Both the position numbers and the translations under genes were made by a program. From positions 1-47,436 of the IMG/VR virus record IMGVR_UViG_3300033994_002184: a stretch of DNA of 47,436 nucleotides; one strand, written 5' to 3'. The notes below the pieces were generated by a model that saw only the letters and a program-made list of their open reading frames with translations, did not search any database and was not told the DNA's origin. This document shows positions 11,572 to 31,965 of this stretch, piece after piece. Position 1 is the first letter of the stretch, and the number at the start of each line of letters is the position of its first letter. This DNA comes from a virus.

Positions 11572-12399
11572 GTGGCAACACCACGTAGGATATCGGATAT
11601 CAGACCACTATTTACTAATCTTGCACAAACTTCTCACTATGAAGTTAAGTTTGGTGGATTACCCACAGAACTAATAAATTACTTAACAAGAAGAGGAGTA
11701 ACATCCAGATTTATTGCTGAAGATGCAGGTCTCTTATGCCATAATGCTTCTCTTCCAACAACACAACTTGCAACTGTCAATATTGATGGAAACTATATTG
11801 GCATCACTGAAACTTTTGCTCACAGAAGAGTTTATCAAGATATAAGTCTTGAATTCTATGTTGATAATAATTACAATACATTAAAATTCTTAGAGCATTG
11901 GATGGAGTTTATTGCAAGTGGATCATCGGATCCAATCAATGGGAATAATTTACCAATTAATAGTAATGTTGATCGGGGTTATTTCATAAGAATGCAATAT
12001 CCAGAATATTATAAATCAAATAGAACAAGAATTATCAAATTTGACCGTGATTATCAGAGAGAAATAGAGTATACTTTTATTGGTTTATATCCATATAATA
12101 TTGCATCAATACCAGTTTCTTACGGACAGTCTGATATTCTAAAGATGCAAGTATCATTTAAAATTGATCGTTATGTAATTGGAAAATCTTATAGTGTAGA
12201 TTATATTACAAATACTGATAATAATATAATTCCTTCTCAGCCTCAATCACAACCACCTTCTCAACCAAAACCAAGATTAGTTCCAAGATCTCCTGGATCT
12301 ATACCATCAAATGGTGTAGAATTATTTCCCGCTGGCCAAACTTTAGCACAGTCTCTTTATAGATCTGGAAATGCAGAGATTCGTAGTTCTAACAGATAA
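11572..12399 (+). CDS. tail-tube-fold protein (gp54/gp19-like)
   Basis: 275 residues starting with GTG at 11572. The N-terminal two thirds look like the T4 gp19 tube fold: HYEVKFGGLPTELINYL, LLCHNASLPTTQLATVNIDG, then ETFAHRRVYQDISLEFYVDN and TLKFLEHWMEFI, with a later strand YTFIGLYPYNIASIPVSYG. The C-terminal tail is rich in proline, glutamine and serine. In T4 the relatives of gp19 are gp48 and gp54; gp54 (tube initiator) is the likeliest equivalent because gp48 is already assigned nearby. The main tube protein gp19 would be expected elsewhere. The stop shares its TAA with a late box. Confidence 0.65.
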   Translation: MATPRRISDIRPLFTNLAQTSHYEVKFGGLPTELINYLTRRGVTSRFIAEDAGLLCHNASLPTTQLATVNIDGNYIGITETFAHRRVYQDISLEFYVDNNYNTLKFLEHWMEFIASGSSDPINGNNLPINSNVDRGYFIRMQYPEYYKSNRTRIIKFDRDYQREIEYTFIGLYPYNIASIPVSYGQSDILKMQVSFKIDRYVIGKSYSVDYITNTDNNIIPSQPQSQPPSQPKPRLVPRSPGSIPSNGVELFPAGQTLAQSLYRSGNAEIRSSNR

Positions 12400-12426: not shown

Positions 12427-13146
12427 ATGTCATTACCTAAAATTGCGACTCCTTCATATTCTTTAGAAATTCCATCCCTTAAAAAAGAAATTAAGTATCG
12501 CCCTTTTCTTGTAAAAGAAGAGAAAATTCTTATCATTGCAATGGAGAGTGAAGATCCAAAGCAAATTGCAAATGCTGTTAAAACTGTAATCAATAATTGT
12601 ATTTTAACTAAAGGAATCAAAGTTGAAGAACTTGCAACCTTTGATATTGAATATTTGTTTCTCAATATTCGTGGTAAATCTGTTGGAGAAACAGTTGATG
12701 TTTTAATTACTTGCCCTGACGATGGACAAACTCAAGTTCCTGTAAGTATTAATCTTGATGATATTGAAATTAATGTTGATGAAAATCATTCAAGAGATAT
12801 TAAACTTGATGATAACTTAACTTTAAGAATGAAATATCCATCAATGAATGAGTTTATTAAATCTAATTTTGGAAATGATTTTAATATGAGTGTTGATGAT
12901 ACATTCAATCTTATTATTTCTTGTATGGAGCAAGTATATAATGAAGAAGAATCTTGGTCTGCGTCTGACTGCACTCAAAAAGAATTGTCTGAGTTTATTG
13001 AACAACTAAGTTCAAAACAATTTAAGGAAGTTGAAAAGTTTTTTGCAACAATGCCTAAACTTTCTCATACTCTTAAAATCAAAAACCCAAATACAAAAGT
13101 TGAAAGTGAAGTACTATTGGAGGGACTATCAAGTTTTTTCGCTTAG
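12427..13146 (+). CDS. 26: gp26 baseplate hub / probable tail chaperone
   Basis: 239 residues beginning MSLPKIATPSYSLEIPSLKK. The family pattern is seen in IKYRPFLVKEEKILIIAMES, NAVKTVINNCIL and FDIEYLFLNIRGKSVGE, as in T4 gp26 (T4 baseplate family). ATG 12427 was chosen rather than TTG 12421 because the family starts with MSLP. In position it lies after a tube-fold gene and before gp51 and a tape-measure-like gene, the place of the tail-assembly chaperone genes in other tailed phages. The last codons AGT TTT TTC GCT TAG contain a perfect -1 slip site, see 13134-13140. A slipped product would be 298 residues. Confidence 0.85.
   Translation: MSLPKIATPSYSLEIPSLKKEIKYRPFLVKEEKILIIAMESEDPKQIANAVKTVINNCILTKGIKVEELATFDIEYLFLNIRGKSVGETVDVLITCPDDGQTQVPVSINLDDIEINVDENHSRDIKLDDNLTLRMKYPSMNEFIKSNFGNDFNMSVDDTFNLIISCMEQVYNEEESWSASDCTQKELSEFIEQLSSKQFKEVEKFFATMPKLSHTLKIKNPNTKVESEVLLEGLSSFFA
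13134..13140 (+). promoter_or_regulatory. programmed -1 frameshift site T TTT TTC
   Basis: In the gp26 frame the codons are AGT TTT TTC GCT TAG, so T_TTT_TTC fits X_XXY_YYZ exactly. A slip of -1 continues CGC TTA GGA ATG, directly in frame with gp51 at 13149. GGAGGG (13119-13124), nine bases upstream, can act as the internal Shine-Dalgarno stimulator known from dnaX-type sites. Gp51 itself has only AGGA touching its ATG, a poor independent start. Confidence 0.7.
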
Positions 13147-13148
13147 GA

Positions 13149-13322
13149 ATGTCTCATGAAAGTCTTGAGTCATATTATAGAACAAATTTTTCTCTGATTC
13201 AGCATCATAAATATTCATTGACAGAGATAGAAAATATGATTCCTTGGGAGAGAGAAGTTTATATATCTCTTCTAAAACAATATATTGAAGAAGAAAACTT
13301 AAAGAACTCTACAAATGGCTGA
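13149..13322 (+). CDS. 51: gp51 baseplate hub assembly protein (possible frameshift extension of gp26)
   Basis: 57 residues: a short N-terminus, then FSLIQHHKYSLTEIENMIPW followed by EREVYISLLKQYIEEEN. The H-x-x-SLxEIxxMxPWEREVY pattern is typical of gp51-like proteins and resembles the small second halves of frameshifted tail chaperones. It lies in the -1 frame relative to gp26, three codons after the slip site if an ATG is counted, and overlaps the next gene by eight bases. It may be made only as part of the gp26-gp51 fusion, since the ribosome site in front of the ATG is too close. Confidence 0.75.
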   Translation: MSHESLESYYRTNFSLIQHHKYSLTEIENMIPWEREVYISLLKQYIEEENLKNSTNG

Positions 13323-14994
13323 GTTAGATCCCGAAAAAGTTGGTAGATCTGGTGTTGATCCAGTTACGGGATCTCCTTTGTCTCAAGAAGTTCGAACTGC
13401 TCTTTTAAAAAAATCTACTATTGATGCATCAGTTTTTCAAAATATTGAGAACAGAAGAGCACAATCTGATGCACAAAATGCAGAGTTGTCTAGGGGACAA
13501 GAACAAGCTCTTCTGGGATTTAATTCGACCCTTCAATCGATAAGAACAGATATTGTAAAATTAGGAACGGGTCTTTCTGGTATTGCACTTCTCCTTCAAC
13601 AAGATGCAGTAGAAGATCAGAATAAAGTCAGAGCAGATCAAGAAAAACAAAGACTACTAACAGAAAGACAGATTAGAATTGGAAAAGAGAATGAAATAGA
13701 ACAAAAGATTCAAAATGCAGTTGCTGAACCTGTACAAAAATTAGTTCCAAGAGTAAATGATATTTTTGGTAGAATAGGAGCAGCTCTTGGAATTTTATTT
13801 GGTGGATGGTTAACAAATCAAACTGTTCAAGCAATAAAAGCATCGGAAGAAGGGAATACAAAACTTTTTAATGAAATTAGATTCAATATTCTCAAAAATG
13901 TTGGAATAGCAGTTGGTGGATTGGTTGCCATTAAAGCAGGATTTTCACTAATTACAAGAACGATTTCAGGAATTGCTTCAGGATTAACGAAATTATTAAT
14001 CACAAAACCACTTGCTATTGCTGCAGCATTGTTACCTAAAGGTCCAAAACCTGGTGGTGCTCCACCAATCAGAGGACCAAAACCTGGAGGGGGAGGTCCA
14101 GGATTAATTGGTGGTTTAATTAATGGTTTAACTGGATGGATGAATTGGATGAACGGGGAAAAAGTTGATGCTATATTATCGGCTTTAACTTTTGTTCCTG
14201 GTGGTGGAATATTTAGAGGAATTAGAGCGGTTGCGGGTGCAACTTATACATTAGATCAAATTGCAGAATTATTTGGTTCAAATCTTACTGGAGCAGATCC
14301 AAAATTATTACAGAAGAAGAAAAAAGAATTTGAAGATGCAAAAAGAAAGGAGCAATCAAAAAAACCACTTGCTGAATCGACAAAACCAACATCAACTCCT
14401 CCATCCGCTTCTCCAAAACCAACTCCATCATCAGCACCGCCAGCGGCACAACCACAAACTTCAATGATGGGGCAACCTGCGTCCTCTACAACTTCCCCTC
14501 CAGCAGCTGCCGAAACTTCAACAGCAACACCTACTCCTGCTGCAACACAACCAAGTGCAGAGATGGTTAAAAATTTTGAAATGGCTTGGCAGTATCGTAA
14601 TAATCCAATGGCAAGAGGAAGAATTGAAGAATCTTGGAATAAAATGACGCCAGATCAACAACAACAGGCAAAAACTTGGGCACAGACAAAAGGTTATGAT
14701 TGGAATGAAATGAAATTGAAAGATTCTGCTAGCATGAATCAACCACCAAAAACTGAAAATGCAGAAATAAGTCCTGCACAAATATCAATACCACCAAAAG
14801 AACCTCAGCAAGTTGGTCAGTTACCAGAACCAAAACCATCTTTGACAATGATTAAAACGTCAAATGATCAACAACAACAACCAAATCCACCATTAACAAA
14901 TGGATCCTTGACTGATGTTCCTTTAATTAATTCTGCAAATCCTGATAACTTTTATGTCCTATATTCGCAGTTAAATTATAACGTGGTGATGTAA
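13315..14994 (+). CDS. tape-measure-like tail protein (gp29-like)
   Basis: 559 residues, close to T4 gp29 (590). Layout: a charged N-terminal coiled-coil region about 20-150, a hydrophobic segment FGRIGAALGILFGGWL about 152-167, a second hydrophobic stretch VGIAVGGLVAIKAGFSLI about 196-215, a glycine/proline loop (GPKPGGAPPIRGPKPGGGG), and a long proline/serine/threonine/glutamine tail from about 345. Helical, membrane-active segments and position directly after the gp26/gp51 pair support a tape measure or hub role; the name gp29 is inferred from synteny, not from clear identity. Its N-terminal plan matches the next gene. Confidence 0.6.
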   Translation: MAELDPEKVGRSGVDPVTGSPLSQEVRTALLKKSTIDASVFQNIENRRAQSDAQNAELSRGQEQALLGFNSTLQSIRTDIVKLGTGLSGIALLLQQDAVEDQNKVRADQEKQRLLTERQIRIGKENEIEQKIQNAVAEPVQKLVPRVNDIFGRIGAALGILFGGWLTNQTVQAIKASEEGNTKLFNEIRFNILKNVGIAVGGLVAIKAGFSLITRTISGIASGLTKLLITKPLAIAAALLPKGPKPGGAPPIRGPKPGGGGPGLIGGLINGLTGWMNWMNGEKVDAILSALTFVPGGGIFRGIRAVAGATYTLDQIAELFGSNLTGADPKLLQKKKKEFEDAKRKEQSKKPLAESTKPTSTPPSASPKPTPSSAPPAAQPQTSMMGQPASSTTSPPAAAETSTATPTPAATQPSAEMVKNFEMAWQYRNNPMARGRIEESWNKMTPDQQQQAKTWAQTKGYDWNEMKLKDSASMNQPPKTENAEISPAQISIPPKEPQQVGQLPEPKPSLTMIKTSNDQQQQPNPPLTNGSLTDVPLINSANPDNFYVLYSQLNYNVVM

Positions 14995-14995
14995 C

Positions 14996-16873
14996 ATGGC
15001 ATTACTAGAATCTCTCAGGAAGTCATCTATTAATATTCAAAGTATTTCTAAGACTTTATCTGATACTAAGAAAAGTACATCATCGGTAAATGAATCTGTA
15101 GATAATATTTCGAGAATTGTTGCAACAAATACTAGAGTTAAAAGAGAATTATTTGCAAGATCTAATGTTTTAAGTTCTAGAAGAGAAGAAGCATCTAAAA
15201 GACAAGAACTTGAAGATAGACTTGAATCAACAAAAGTATCTACATCTCCACAGTTAGGACTTTCATTTACCTCAAGAAGTGATAAAGGCCCTCTAGGAAG
15301 ATTATTAGGATTTTTGGGATTTATTACTGCTGGTTGGATTGTAGAAAATCTACCAAGATGGATTTTCATGGGGCAGGAGTTTATATCTAGAATTTATTCT
15401 TTTGGAAGATCAATGTATAGTATGGTGAATAGTATGCAAGTTATAATTAAATCTTTTGGTCAGACTTTAGGATATTCATTAGATGCAATTGTTCGCTTAG
15501 ATTTTGATCAATTTGCTGGAGAAGGAACTGTTGCAAGATCTTTTGAAGAGTTAAATCTTGCTGTTCAAGATTTAGGAACTAATATTACAGATACTTTTAA
15601 ACTTTTTACAACACCATTAACAGAATCGTTAGAAACTGGTGAGAAGGCACCCGGACTTGAAGAAAAGCAACCAGATACAATGTTCCCTCCAATCCCTCAG
15701 GAAAGAGGCACATCTCCTATTACTCCCTATACTGGCCCAGAAACAACATCATCTGGAGTTCTTAATCCTCAAGCAGCTTACTCTCATTTGAGGCAAATGG
15801 GAGTTTCTCACATACATGCTTTAGGAATTTTGGCAAATATTCAGGGTGAAAGTAGTTTTAAAATTGCAGCAGATGAAAATGGTAGAGGAACTGCAGGTAT
15901 TGGATTGTTCCAATATACATTCCCATCAAGAAAAAGAAGATTTTTACAAGCAGTTCCCGATTGGAGAAATAATTGGAAAGCACAAATAGATTATGCTATA
16001 AAAAATGATGAGAATACTCCATTATATCTAAAAAAACAATTTAGTAGCCCAGAAGAAGCCGCAGATGATTTTATGAGAAACTGGGAAAATCCCAGTAAAG
16101 ATGTTTATACTCAAAGAAGAAAAATACATAATTCTTTTATTAAATCATTTAGATCACCTAGTAAAGAAAAAACCAGTCAAGCATCTAATGTAATAACTCC
16201 ACCACAAGCACAGTCAAAAAAATCAACACTAGATTTAAAAAAATTAGGATTTTCTGTCGGAGAAAAAGCAGGATATAGTCCAAGTAGAGGGAGAATTCAC
16301 GCTGGTAGAGATATTGCAATTGACAAAGGAACACCGGTTTCGGTAATTAGTGATGCAAAAATTACGGATGTTGGATATGAATCTGGTTATGGATATTTTG
16401 TTGCTTATCTTGATTCTAAAGGAATTGAACATTTTTATGGACATCTTCGTGAAATGCCGAAAGTAAAAAAAGGACAACAACTTTCATCTGGAACTATTGT
16501 TGGGTATGTTGGTTCTACTGGAAGTTCTACAGGGCCTCATTTGCACTGGGAAGTTTCTCCTCGTTTAGGTGAAGTTGGTCGTCCAAGAAAAAATATAATA
16601 GATCCAATTGAATATGGTTTTTCAGCATCTTCTCCTTTTGGTGGTACGCCACCAGCACAAATCTCAGCACAACCAAAACCATCACAACCTTCTGCAATTA
16701 CACCTGAGAGAAAAGGATCTCAAATGGTTTTAATTGATGCTACAAAACCATCACAACCTCAAGTATCATATCCATCTCAACAACAACCGTCTGTCACTCC
16801 AACAATAAGTGAATTTAAACTGTTAAATAATTTTATTAAGAATAAACTTCTACTCGACTTAGCATACCTATAA
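14996..16873 (+). CDS. tail protein with lysozyme-like and M23 peptidase domains
   Basis: 625 residues. The N-terminus resembles the preceding protein: heptad-like helix, then GRLLGFLGFITAGWIVENLP (about 100-120) and further membrane-like helices. Residues about 258-385 form a tail-lysozyme domain (AYSHLRQMGVSHIHALGILA, IQGESSF with catalytic-type glutamate, GIGLFQY). Residues about 418-545 form an M23 zinc endopeptidase: H435 and D439 in GRIHAGRDIAI, and H515/H517 in GPHLHWEV. Together they could cut both glycan and peptide bonds of host peptidoglycan at DNA entry. The C-terminus is proline/serine/glutamine-rich. The stop overlaps the next start (TAATG). Confidence 0.85.
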   Translation: MALLESLRKSSINIQSISKTLSDTKKSTSSVNESVDNISRIVATNTRVKRELFARSNVLSSRREEASKRQELEDRLESTKVSTSPQLGLSFTSRSDKGPLGRLLGFLGFITAGWIVENLPRWIFMGQEFISRIYSFGRSMYSMVNSMQVIIKSFGQTLGYSLDAIVRLDFDQFAGEGTVARSFEELNLAVQDLGTNITDTFKLFTTPLTESLETGEKAPGLEEKQPDTMFPPIPQERGTSPITPYTGPETTSSGVLNPQAAYSHLRQMGVSHIHALGILANIQGESSFKIAADENGRGTAGIGLFQYTFPSRKRRFLQAVPDWRNNWKAQIDYAIKNDENTPLYLKKQFSSPEEAADDFMRNWENPSKDVYTQRRKIHNSFIKSFRSPSKEKTSQASNVITPPQAQSKKSTLDLKKLGFSVGEKAGYSPSRGRIHAGRDIAIDKGTPVSVISDAKITDVGYESGYGYFVAYLDSKGIEHFYGHLREMPKVKKGQQLSSGTIVGYVGSTGSSTGPHLHWEVSPRLGEVGRPRKNIIDPIEYGFSASSPFGGTPPAQISAQPKPSQPSAITPERKGSQMVLIDATKPSQPQVSYPSQQQPSVTPTISEFKLLNNFIKNKLLLDLAYL

Positions 16874-28750: not shown

Positions 28751-29170
28751 ATGGCACCTAAAAAATTATCAAAGACTCGTCAAAAAATTCATGAACTTTA
28801 TGAAGAAAATGAACTTGCTAATCTACAGCAAAGTCAAACAAGAGCAAGATCATTTACAGTTGGAACAACAACTGGTGGTATTATAGAAGTTGGGATGCGT
28901 GGAGATTTCTCAAATCTTTGGTATCTTCTTCAACCTGTAGAAGCGGTTGAAATTATCAATCAACTTGCAGCCGCTGCTGGATTAGAAGTTGCAATGAGAC
29001 CAAGACAAGACTTTGCAACTTGGAGAGGATGGGATACTTCTTTACCTCCAAGTGTTCATTGGATAGGCACTGCACCATGGCAACTTAGCGATGAACAAAG
29101 AGCAGAATTAGAGGCAGTAAAAGCAAAAAATATTAAAGCAATTGAGCAGTCAAAAGAAGATGCTGAATGA
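28751..29170 (+). CDS. unknown phage protein in fibre region
   Basis: 139 residues starting MAPKKLSKTRQKIHELYEEN. The N-terminus is a charged helix, the middle TTTGGIIEVGMRGDFSNLWY and LLQPVEAVEIINQLAAAAGL look like a small alpha/beta domain, and the end is a charged helix EQRAELEAVKAKNIKAIEQS. No family recognised. The ATG at 28751 is preferred over TTG 28739 as it lies at good distance from the late box. Its end overlaps the next gene by 11 bases. Confidence 0.6.
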   Translation: MAPKKLSKTRQKIHELYEENELANLQQSQTRARSFTVGTTTGGIIEVGMRGDFSNLWYLLQPVEAVEIINQLAAAAGLEVAMRPRQDFATWRGWDTSLPPSVHWIGTAPWQLSDEQRAELEAVKAKNIKAIEQSKEDAE

Positions 29171-29696
29171 TTATTTTGTTTTAGTTGATAATGAACAAAA
29201 AATAATTATTGATAAAATTCAAAAAATTCCAGATTATTGGAATAATATTGCTCATCCAGGAAATTTTAGCGATGAAGAATTAAGAGATTTAACTTGGTCT
29301 GGTAATCTTAATATTGGATGGGTGAGAATTAATTCAGAATATATCAAAGAATACTCAAGTTCAAAAGAAAATTTAGAGTTGAATAAAAATCAACTAAAAT
29401 ATATTTTTTCAAAAACAATACAAGAAAAACAAAATTTACCAATTGAATATAATGGAATTAAAATTATTCCTGATGAAAAAACAAGATATTCTTTTTGGAT
29501 AAAAAAAATTCAATCTGTTGACAAATTCAATTATAAAATTAACAATAAATATCACACTTTTAATAAAATTCAAATTCAAGAAATATGTGATAAAATAGAA
29601 GAACATATCGATCATTATACTAATCTTGAAATGAATGTTTATGAACAAATAGATTCTTGTGAGAATGTATATGATTTTTCTAAAATAAATTTATGA
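29160..29696 (+). CDS. unknown protein, possibly DUF4376/tail-fibre-assembly-like
   Basis: 178 residues starting MLNDYFVLVDNEQKIIIDKI. The N-terminus looks like a short strand domain (FVLVDNEQKIIIDKIQKIPD), and the C-terminal half is helical with KIQIQEICDKIEEHIDHYTN and LEMNVYEQIDSCENVYDFSK, which recalls the DUF4376 proteins found near tail fibres (helices ending with Y-x-QI-x-x-C). It is very lysine/asparagine/isoleucine-rich. The last four bases overlap the next gene (ATGA). An in-frame TTG at 29142 is less likely. Confidence 0.5.
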   Translation: MLNDYFVLVDNEQKIIIDKIQKIPDYWNNIAHPGNFSDEELRDLTWSGNLNIGWVRINSEYIKEYSSSKENLELNKNQLKYIFSKTIQEKQNLPIEYNGIKIIPDEKTRYSFWIKKIQSVDKFNYKINNKYHTFNKIQIQEICDKIEEHIDHYTNLEMNVYEQIDSCENVYDFSKINL

Positions 29697-30343
29697 CTTC
29701 CAAGTACTTAACTTACAAAAATTCTTTTGATAATCTTGTTGACCCCATTAAAAATTCTTGGGGACAATACTGGTACTTAAAATCACAAGAACAAACTCAA
29801 TATTGTTGGAATAATGAAATATTTTCCGACGATGAAATTGGTCGTATTAAAGTAATTGGTAAAAGACTGGGAATACAAAGGGCACAAACTGGAGGATTAG
29901 GAGAAAATTGTCTAGACCATCGTAGATCTTTCACATCTTGGATTGCTCCAAATGAACATACTAGTTGGATTTATAAAAGATTGACTGAAATAGTCAATCA
30001 AAATAATTTAAAATTTTTTAATTTTGATCTTACACAAATTGAGACATTACAATTTACATATTATAGTGATAAAGAAAATGGATGTTATAAGTCACATATA
30101 GATCCATTAAATTGGAATCTACCACATAATCGTAAATTGAGTATGGTTCTGCAATTATCAGATCCTTCAGAGTATGAAGGTGGGGAATTAAAATTATACA
30201 CTTCCCAAGAACCAATAATTATACATAAGGAAAAAGGATATATGGTGACCTTTCCTTCATATACATTACATGAAGTAACACCAGTAACAAAGGGAGATAG
30301 ATATAGTCTAGTTGCTTGGGTTCATGGTCCATCATTTAAGTGA
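29693..30343 (+). CDS. 2OG-Fe(II) oxygenase (PKHD-type)
   Basis: 216 residues. The iron-binding triad is clear: HxD in YKSHIDPLNW, distal H in YTLHEVTPVTKGDRYSLVAW, and the R of DRYSLVAWVHGP for 2-oxoglutarate. MVLQLSDPSEYEGGELKLYT is the typical core strand region of prolyl hydroxylase-like phage enzymes (PiuC/PKHD group). N-terminal region contains YWYLKSQEQTQYCWNNEIFS. The substrate is unknown; fibre or adhesin proteins encoded around it are possible targets. The gene overlaps its neighbours by four bases on both sides (ATGA and GTGA). Confidence 0.85.
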   Translation: MTSKYLTYKNSFDNLVDPIKNSWGQYWYLKSQEQTQYCWNNEIFSDDEIGRIKVIGKRLGIQRAQTGGLGENCLDHRRSFTSWIAPNEHTSWIYKRLTEIVNQNNLKFFNFDLTQIETLQFTYYSDKENGCYKSHIDPLNWNLPHNRKLSMVLQLSDPSEYEGGELKLYTSQEPIIIHKEKGYMVTFPSYTLHEVTPVTKGDRYSLVAWVHGPSFK

Positions 30344-31863: not shown

Positions 31864-31865
31864 AT

Positions 31866-31936
31866 GGGCGGGTACTTTAATGGTAAAAGAGGCTCCTTAT
31901 AAGGGCTCAATCTGGGTTCAATTCCCGGTCCGCCTA
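31866..31936 (+). tRNA. tRNA-Ile, anticodon UAU (decodes AUA)
   Basis: All arms are regular: acceptor GGGCGGG/TCCGCCT (two G-U pairs), T8 A9, D arm CTTT/AAAG with AATGGTA, anticodon arm GGCTC/GGGCT around CTTATAA, variable loop CAAT, T arm CTGGG/CCCGG with TTCAATT, discriminator A. The anticodon at 34-36 is UAU. Bacteria usually read AUA with a lysidine-modified CAU tRNA, so a UAU tRNA would let the AT-rich phage read AUA directly. CCA is not encoded. Confidence 0.85.
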
Positions 31937-31965
31937 TTGACCATTAATACTCTATGAGTTATAAT
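31937..31965 (+). promoter_or_regulatory. promoter of tRNA-Leu TTGACC-N17-TATAAT
   Basis: TTGACC 31937-31942 directly follows the tRNA-Ile discriminator; TATAAT 31960-31965; start near 31972, nine bases before the mature 5' end. Confidence 0.85.

Follow-up and report, generated by a model that had tools for sequence, protein, structure and literature searches.

The gp26–gp51 locus

The window analysed here is a complete IMG/VR virus record of 47,436 bases, whose nearest named relative, judged by gp26, is the Synechococcus phage S-SRM01 of the family Kyanoviridae (94.6% identical). The gp26 gene (TAC-N) extends over positions 12427..13146, from an ATG at 12427 to a TAG at 13144-13146, and like all features of this locus it lies on the plus strand. 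Its frame-0 product of 239 aa, the predicted short form, matches the T4_baseplate family (PF12322, E 3e-75) and phrog_150 (E 6e-80). The 3' end of the gene reads GAG GGA CTA TCA AGT TTT TTC GCT TAG and contains the slippery heptamer T_TTT_TTC (13134..13140) in phase with the gp26 frame. A predicted internal Shine-Dalgarno-like stimulator, GGAGGG (13119..13124), precedes this heptamer, with 9 nt between the two.

No stop interrupts the -1 frame between about 13110 and a TGA at 13320-13322. A slip of one base backwards at the heptamer would lead to TTT TTT CGC TTA GGA ATG and onwards to this TGA. The gp51 coding tail (TAC-C, 13134..13322) comprises 60 aa after the FF and would form the C-terminus of a fusion of 298 aa, with the junction ...SSFF-RLGMSHESLESYYR... 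It matches phrog_634 (E 2.5e-27) and also positions 238-278 of phrog_150, the gp26 family. The predicted junction peptide is FFRLGMSHESLESYYR in the window phage and FFRLGMAHESLESYYK in S-SRM01.

A frameshift at this place had been proposed from the letters alone, and the coordinates given in that sequence-only reading for the gp26 end, the heptamer and GGAGGG are all correct on direct reading of the sequence. It had also remarked that gp51 has no well-spaced ribosome site of its own. This is borne out, with just TAGGA directly abutting the ATG at 13149, but gp26 and other genes of the window share the same lack. The absence of a Shine-Dalgarno site for gp51 thus discriminates little, and it was dropped as evidence for a frameshift.

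The 57 ORFs of at least 100 aa in the window were scanned for an in-phase canonical heptamer within about six codons of the stop, accompanied by a long open -1 frame. Besides gp26, this combination was found in one ORF (29142-29696, AAATTTA). It was rejected as a second frameshift site, being an ordinary ATGA gene overlap in which the heptamer before 29696 is probably due to chance. The ORF that follows (the pair spans 29142-30343) resembles a 2-oxoglutarate/Fe(II) oxygenase, with a HID...H motif recognized by eye. The single tRNA gene, a tRNA-Ile with anticodon TAT, is found at 31865-31937.

Conservation of the slippery heptamer

Related loci were gathered from three queries of IMG/VR and from named phages, giving 255 in all. 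A canonical in-phase heptamer is present within the last 61 nt of gp26 in 252 of them, and is nearly always T_TTT_TTN placed 7-13 nt before the stop. When the gp26 proteins are clustered at 80% identity (n=84), this T_TTT_TTN at 7-13 nt is kept in 81 clusters. The sequence-only reading had named in advance a lack of conservation of the heptamer among relatives as one outcome that would refute it, and conservation is what was found. The hosts of the phages bearing it include cyanobacteria, Methylophilales, Sinorhizobium, Ochrobactrum, Agrobacterium, Vibrio, Aeromonas and Stenotrophomonas, and a straboviral phage of Citrobacter carries it as well.

Constraint on the slip site is directly observed at the level of synonymous positions. 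The first Phe codon is TTT in 81/81 clusters, TTT making up 65% of Phe codons, and the base that precedes it is always T in the 81 heptamer clusters. At the other xFF dipeptides of the gp26 genes, the T_TTT_TTY spelling occurs once in 102 cases. Were the clusters independent, the log10 P of such a fixation of the slip codons would be about -29. Since they share ancestry, the nominal probabilities (10^-29, 10^-49) are too strong, their direction being plain. Judged by its conservation, the heptamer of the window is thus far beyond chance.

The three loci without a canonical heptamer belong to the Ackermannviridae or are close to them. In that family, the gp26 homologue (for example in KWBSE43-6 and Vi01-like phages) has an invariant ATT TTC AT(T/C) TAA end, with no canonical slip heptamer. 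The -1 tail is conserved as FHL[IM]FE.DLLSYFVMCDEL...MPWHL, and in the KWBSE43-6 and Vi01-like forms its first codons include no ATG, GTG or TTG. Such a junction points to a slip of a single tRNA, or to some other way of making the long form. The Ackermannviridae-like Vibrio phages show CTT TTT with a TAATG overlap. Another variant is seen in the Pelagibacter phage Mosig, where TTT TTC is placed 9 codons ahead of the gp26 stop rather than 2-4, which leaves a short additional tail on the frame-0 product past the slip site.

The gp51 tail and its start codons

The tail read in the -1 frame is 56-68 residues long and is conserved from its first residues (FFRxxLxHxxLxxYYxxNFALM). An ATG right after the gp26 stop is present in the window and in about half of the clusters, so that free gp51 could be made from ATG 13149 in the window phage, independently or by coupling. 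Conservation of the tail was established in 78 clusters, and in 27 of these, including S-RIM8 and Melnitz-2, the first 12 codons after the slip are free of ATG, GTG and TTG. In several such clusters, the conserved domain is already some 20 codons old when the first start codon is reached. Without an early start codon, these phages cannot make the whole tail domain by initiation.

In public cyanophage records (S-RIM8 and Melnitz-2, for example), gp51 is annotated from an internal Met within the conserved domain, or is left unannotated. This misannotation arises because a start codon was sought. Cyanophage and marine vibriophage gp51 have been described as devoid of the first ~200 residues of T4 gp51 (PMC3037559), a shortfall explained by the missing part being gp26.

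Elements upstream and downstream of the slip site

The sequence-only reading had compared GGAGGG, nine bases upstream of the heptamer, with the stimulator of dnaX-type sites. Its position is confirmed, and the element recurs widely: pairing with the anti-Shine-Dalgarno sequence of -4 kcal/mol or better is found at this place in ~90% of the clusters. The complementary stretch ends 6-9 nt ahead of the heptamer and falls on a conserved Leu-Glu-Gly. The Glu codon is GAG in 42/72 cases, compared with a background of 29.6%, and the Gly codon is GGA or GGG in 61/80, compared with 33.6% (p 4e-7 and 7e-15, respectively, uncorrected for shared ancestry). This codon bias indicates that the element is under synonymous selection.

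A conserved downstream stem-loop, which the sequence-only reading had missed, was found in the clade of the window. This clade of 52 distinct sequences was delimited from the peptide, without regard to pairing. An 11-bp stem starting 5 nt after the heptamer keeps at least 9 pairs in 50 of the 52. Its position in the window is 13146..13176 (arms 13146-13156 and 13166-13176). In 19 cluster representatives, which were picked for pairing at this place, 93.3% of the stem cells are paired, versus 25-44% in slid controls. Pair 21-35 of the stem covaries three ways (UA 12, GC 4, AU 1), the third base of an Ala codon tracking the second base of the facing codon (GCT/GAG, GCG/GCG, GCA/GTG).

Many relatives have 11/11 pairs, while the window itself has 9/11. 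Given these two mismatches, and an alternative local fold that scores little better than shuffled sequences (z -1.68), the window phage probably has a weaker stem. Pooled over all clusters, downstream structure shows a mild trend, with a mean z of -1.1 to -1.7. No single stem geometry fits all clades, and that of the window's clade is absent in the others.

Relationship to T4 gp26 and gp51

A profile built on the frameshift fusions aligns over 10-237 with T4 gp26, the match ending at the FF of that protein, and over 24-281 with T4 gp51, where it crosses the junction. Among the hub genes tested, the tail profile matches only the gp51 of T4, phiAS4 and RB43, which are natural in-frame fusions. 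In T4 and phiAS4, the short and long forms are a paralogous pair. These alignments identify T4 gp51 as the long form encoded by its own gene, and T4 gp26 as the short form.

The counterpart of the slip site can still be recognized in T4, where the FF of gp26 is spelled TTC TTT, as in its close relatives. In further phages of the T4 group, the FF or its codons are lost. The slip site has thus decayed in the group where gp51 is a separate full-length gene, the amino acids outliving a slip site that is no longer needed. The two systems differ in that T4 no longer has the slip codons and encodes the forms in two separate genes of divergent orientation. Homology links T4 gp26 with the short form and T4 gp51 with the whole fusion.

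Fold, function and neighbouring genes

Confident AlphaFold models were obtained for gp26 (pLDDT 87.7) and for a T4-like gp51 (85.1). The N-terminal domain of the gp26 model was aligned by VIA-align to the HK97 tail assembly chaperone 2OB9 with a Z of 8.0 (3.9 Å over 84 residues). The other top rows were 3FGX (Z 8.0) and YqbN, 3KLU (Z 7.2), and the next row fell to 4.9. All three top rows cover 84-86 residues of gp26 1-95, and a Z of about 8 can reflect a common arrangement. A Foldseek search against the PDB gave no significant E-value for either gp26 (TAC matches at ~1) or the T4-like long-form model. TAC structures were not returned for the long-form model in the second structural comparison, which does not exclude them, and a search of PDB sequences with the gp26 profile gave nothing.

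The sequence-only reading had assigned gp26 and the 298-residue fusion to the tail assembly chaperones, and this proposal gains support from both the fold match and the naturally fused T4 gp51. The T4 proteins gp26 and gp51 figure in the literature as chaperones of hub assembly, with gp51 absent from the final particle (PMC3004832). The S-CREM2 counterparts of gp26 and gp51 (ORF206 and ORF207) were not found by coordinate in the virion proteome paper of that phage (PMC10665884), which fits transient chaperones, though as weak evidence.

A gene order of the lambda G/GT type had also been put forward, and it stands on the upstream side. There, the product of 11572..12399, a gp54-like protein, has a tail tube fold (PF23849, E 1.4e-19; phrog_45, E 6.4e-38). 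On the downstream side, the ORF of 559 aa (13315..14994), which overlaps the end of gp51, has no Pfam or PHROG match. Its position and its hydrophobic segments at residues 188-241 make it a candidate tape measure protein. The next gene (14996-16873) encodes a protein of 625 aa that combines, within a single chain, a phage tail lysozyme domain (PF18013) with an M23 peptidase domain (PF01551) and that resembles parts of the PHROGs tape measure proteins.

Proposed mechanism and alternative explanations

With a probability of about 0.9, we consider that a programmed -1 frameshift at T_TTT_TTC yields gp26 and a gp26-gp51 fusion, acting as short and long tail assembly chaperones. Its main supports are the conservation of the site, the start-less tails, the synonymous constraint, the natural fusion in T4 gp51 and the fold match. 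Some ribosomes, with tRNA-Phe in the P and A sites on T_TTT_TTC, would slip back by one base and re-pair on TTT_TTT, helped by anti-Shine-Dalgarno pairing with GGAGGG and, in the clade of the window, by the stem-loop five bases downstream. Unslipped ribosomes would stop at 13144 and release the short form (TAC-N), whereas slipped ones would continue to 13322 and release the long form (TAC-NC). Both forms would be transient chaperones of tail and hub assembly, probably acting on the tape measure protein, as lambda gpG and gpGT do. The site, its conservation and constraint and the fused T4 homologue are direct observations; the slipping itself, its rate and the binding of its products to the tape measure protein are inferred.

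Translation of gp51 as a separate gene, starting by coupling or by reinitiation from the ATG at 13149 (two bases past the gp26 stop), would leave the heptamer incidental. The frequent ATG after the stop agrees with this, as do the TAATG overlaps of some Ackermannviridae-like Vibrio phages, and GGAGGG, 24 nt upstream of the ATG, could hold ribosomes there. Yet the 27 of 78 clusters that offer no start codon from which the conserved beginning of the tail could be read, the invariance of the slip codons at synonymous positions and the T4 counterpart, which is a fusion, make it very unlikely that gp51 is simply a gene of its own.

Slippage of the polymerase rather than the ribosome would be expected to exploit the T6-T7 homopolymer run that forms the core of the site. 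The phase of this run follows from the conserved FF and is therefore not decisive by itself between the two kinds of slippage. Six T's are short for polymerase slippage, and neither the Shine-Dalgarno-like element nor the covarying stem, both set at ribosomal spacing, would have a role in it, so that transcriptional slippage appears slightly less probable still than a separate gp51. As for a former single ORF disrupted in this contig by a sequencing error or a disabling frameshift, nothing speaks for it beyond the frame change itself. The frame arrangement is the same in over 250 independent contigs and isolates, drawn from several hosts, and this conservation refutes the idea almost completely. 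Programmed ribosomal frameshifting thus remains the preferred explanation.

Known systems and implications

The sequence-only reading knew of no report of such a frameshift in T4-like phages, which proved wrong. The literature under the gene names gp26 and gp51 gave no description of a frameshift, but these genes and their frameshift signals were described by Vladimirov, Gautam & Davidson (Virology 2022;566:9-15), a paper cited by the PRFect paper. Two later papers, both citing this study, mention polyT -1 frameshift signals in the TAC-N genes of T4-like phages (PMC12846349) and, in some T4-like phages, a short gene and a long fused gene instead of frameshifting (PMC10885494). The genes and the phage group of the 2022 study are the same as here. 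The site of the window is thus a new example and not a discovery. Possible novelties are the stem with its covariation, the codon bias at the Shine-Dalgarno-like element, the large-scale record of start-less tails and the junction seen in Ackermannviridae. The 2022 study reportedly finds frameshifting conserved in several T4-like groups, with T4 itself using genes 26 (TAC-N) and 51 (TAC-NC).

The cassette resembles that of E. coli dnaX in its order, with a Shine-Dalgarno-like element upstream of a slippery heptamer and, in the clade of the window, a stem-loop downstream. In dnaX, the heptamer is A_AAA_AAG and slipping truncates the protein, whereas here T_TTT_TTC lies near the stop and slipping would extend it. 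The known counterpart among tail genes is lambda gpG/gpGT, part of the frameshift conserved in dsDNA phage tail genes (Xu, Hendrix & Duda 2004), with which no sequence similarity was detected. The heptamer of the window phage differs from that of lambda, and its phage group has a contractile tail with hub proteins.

A modular cassette may be envisaged, though tentatively and with the odds rather against it. The heptamer and the Shine-Dalgarno-like element would be ancient and shared across T4-like phages, the stem would be specific to one clade, and the Ackermannviridae would keep a start-less -1 tail with a non-canonical junction. If this is true, the ratio of short to long chaperone would be tuned in each lineage, and the T4-type phages would have left the system when each form came to have its own gene. 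More broadly, the comparative evidence supports the notion that, beyond the T4 group, frameshifting is how the majority of T4-like phages make their tail chaperones. The many public records in which the gp51 tail appears as a truncated separate gene, or is missing, represent a correctable annotation problem, and the system would provide a ready test of how the chaperone ratio affects tail assembly.
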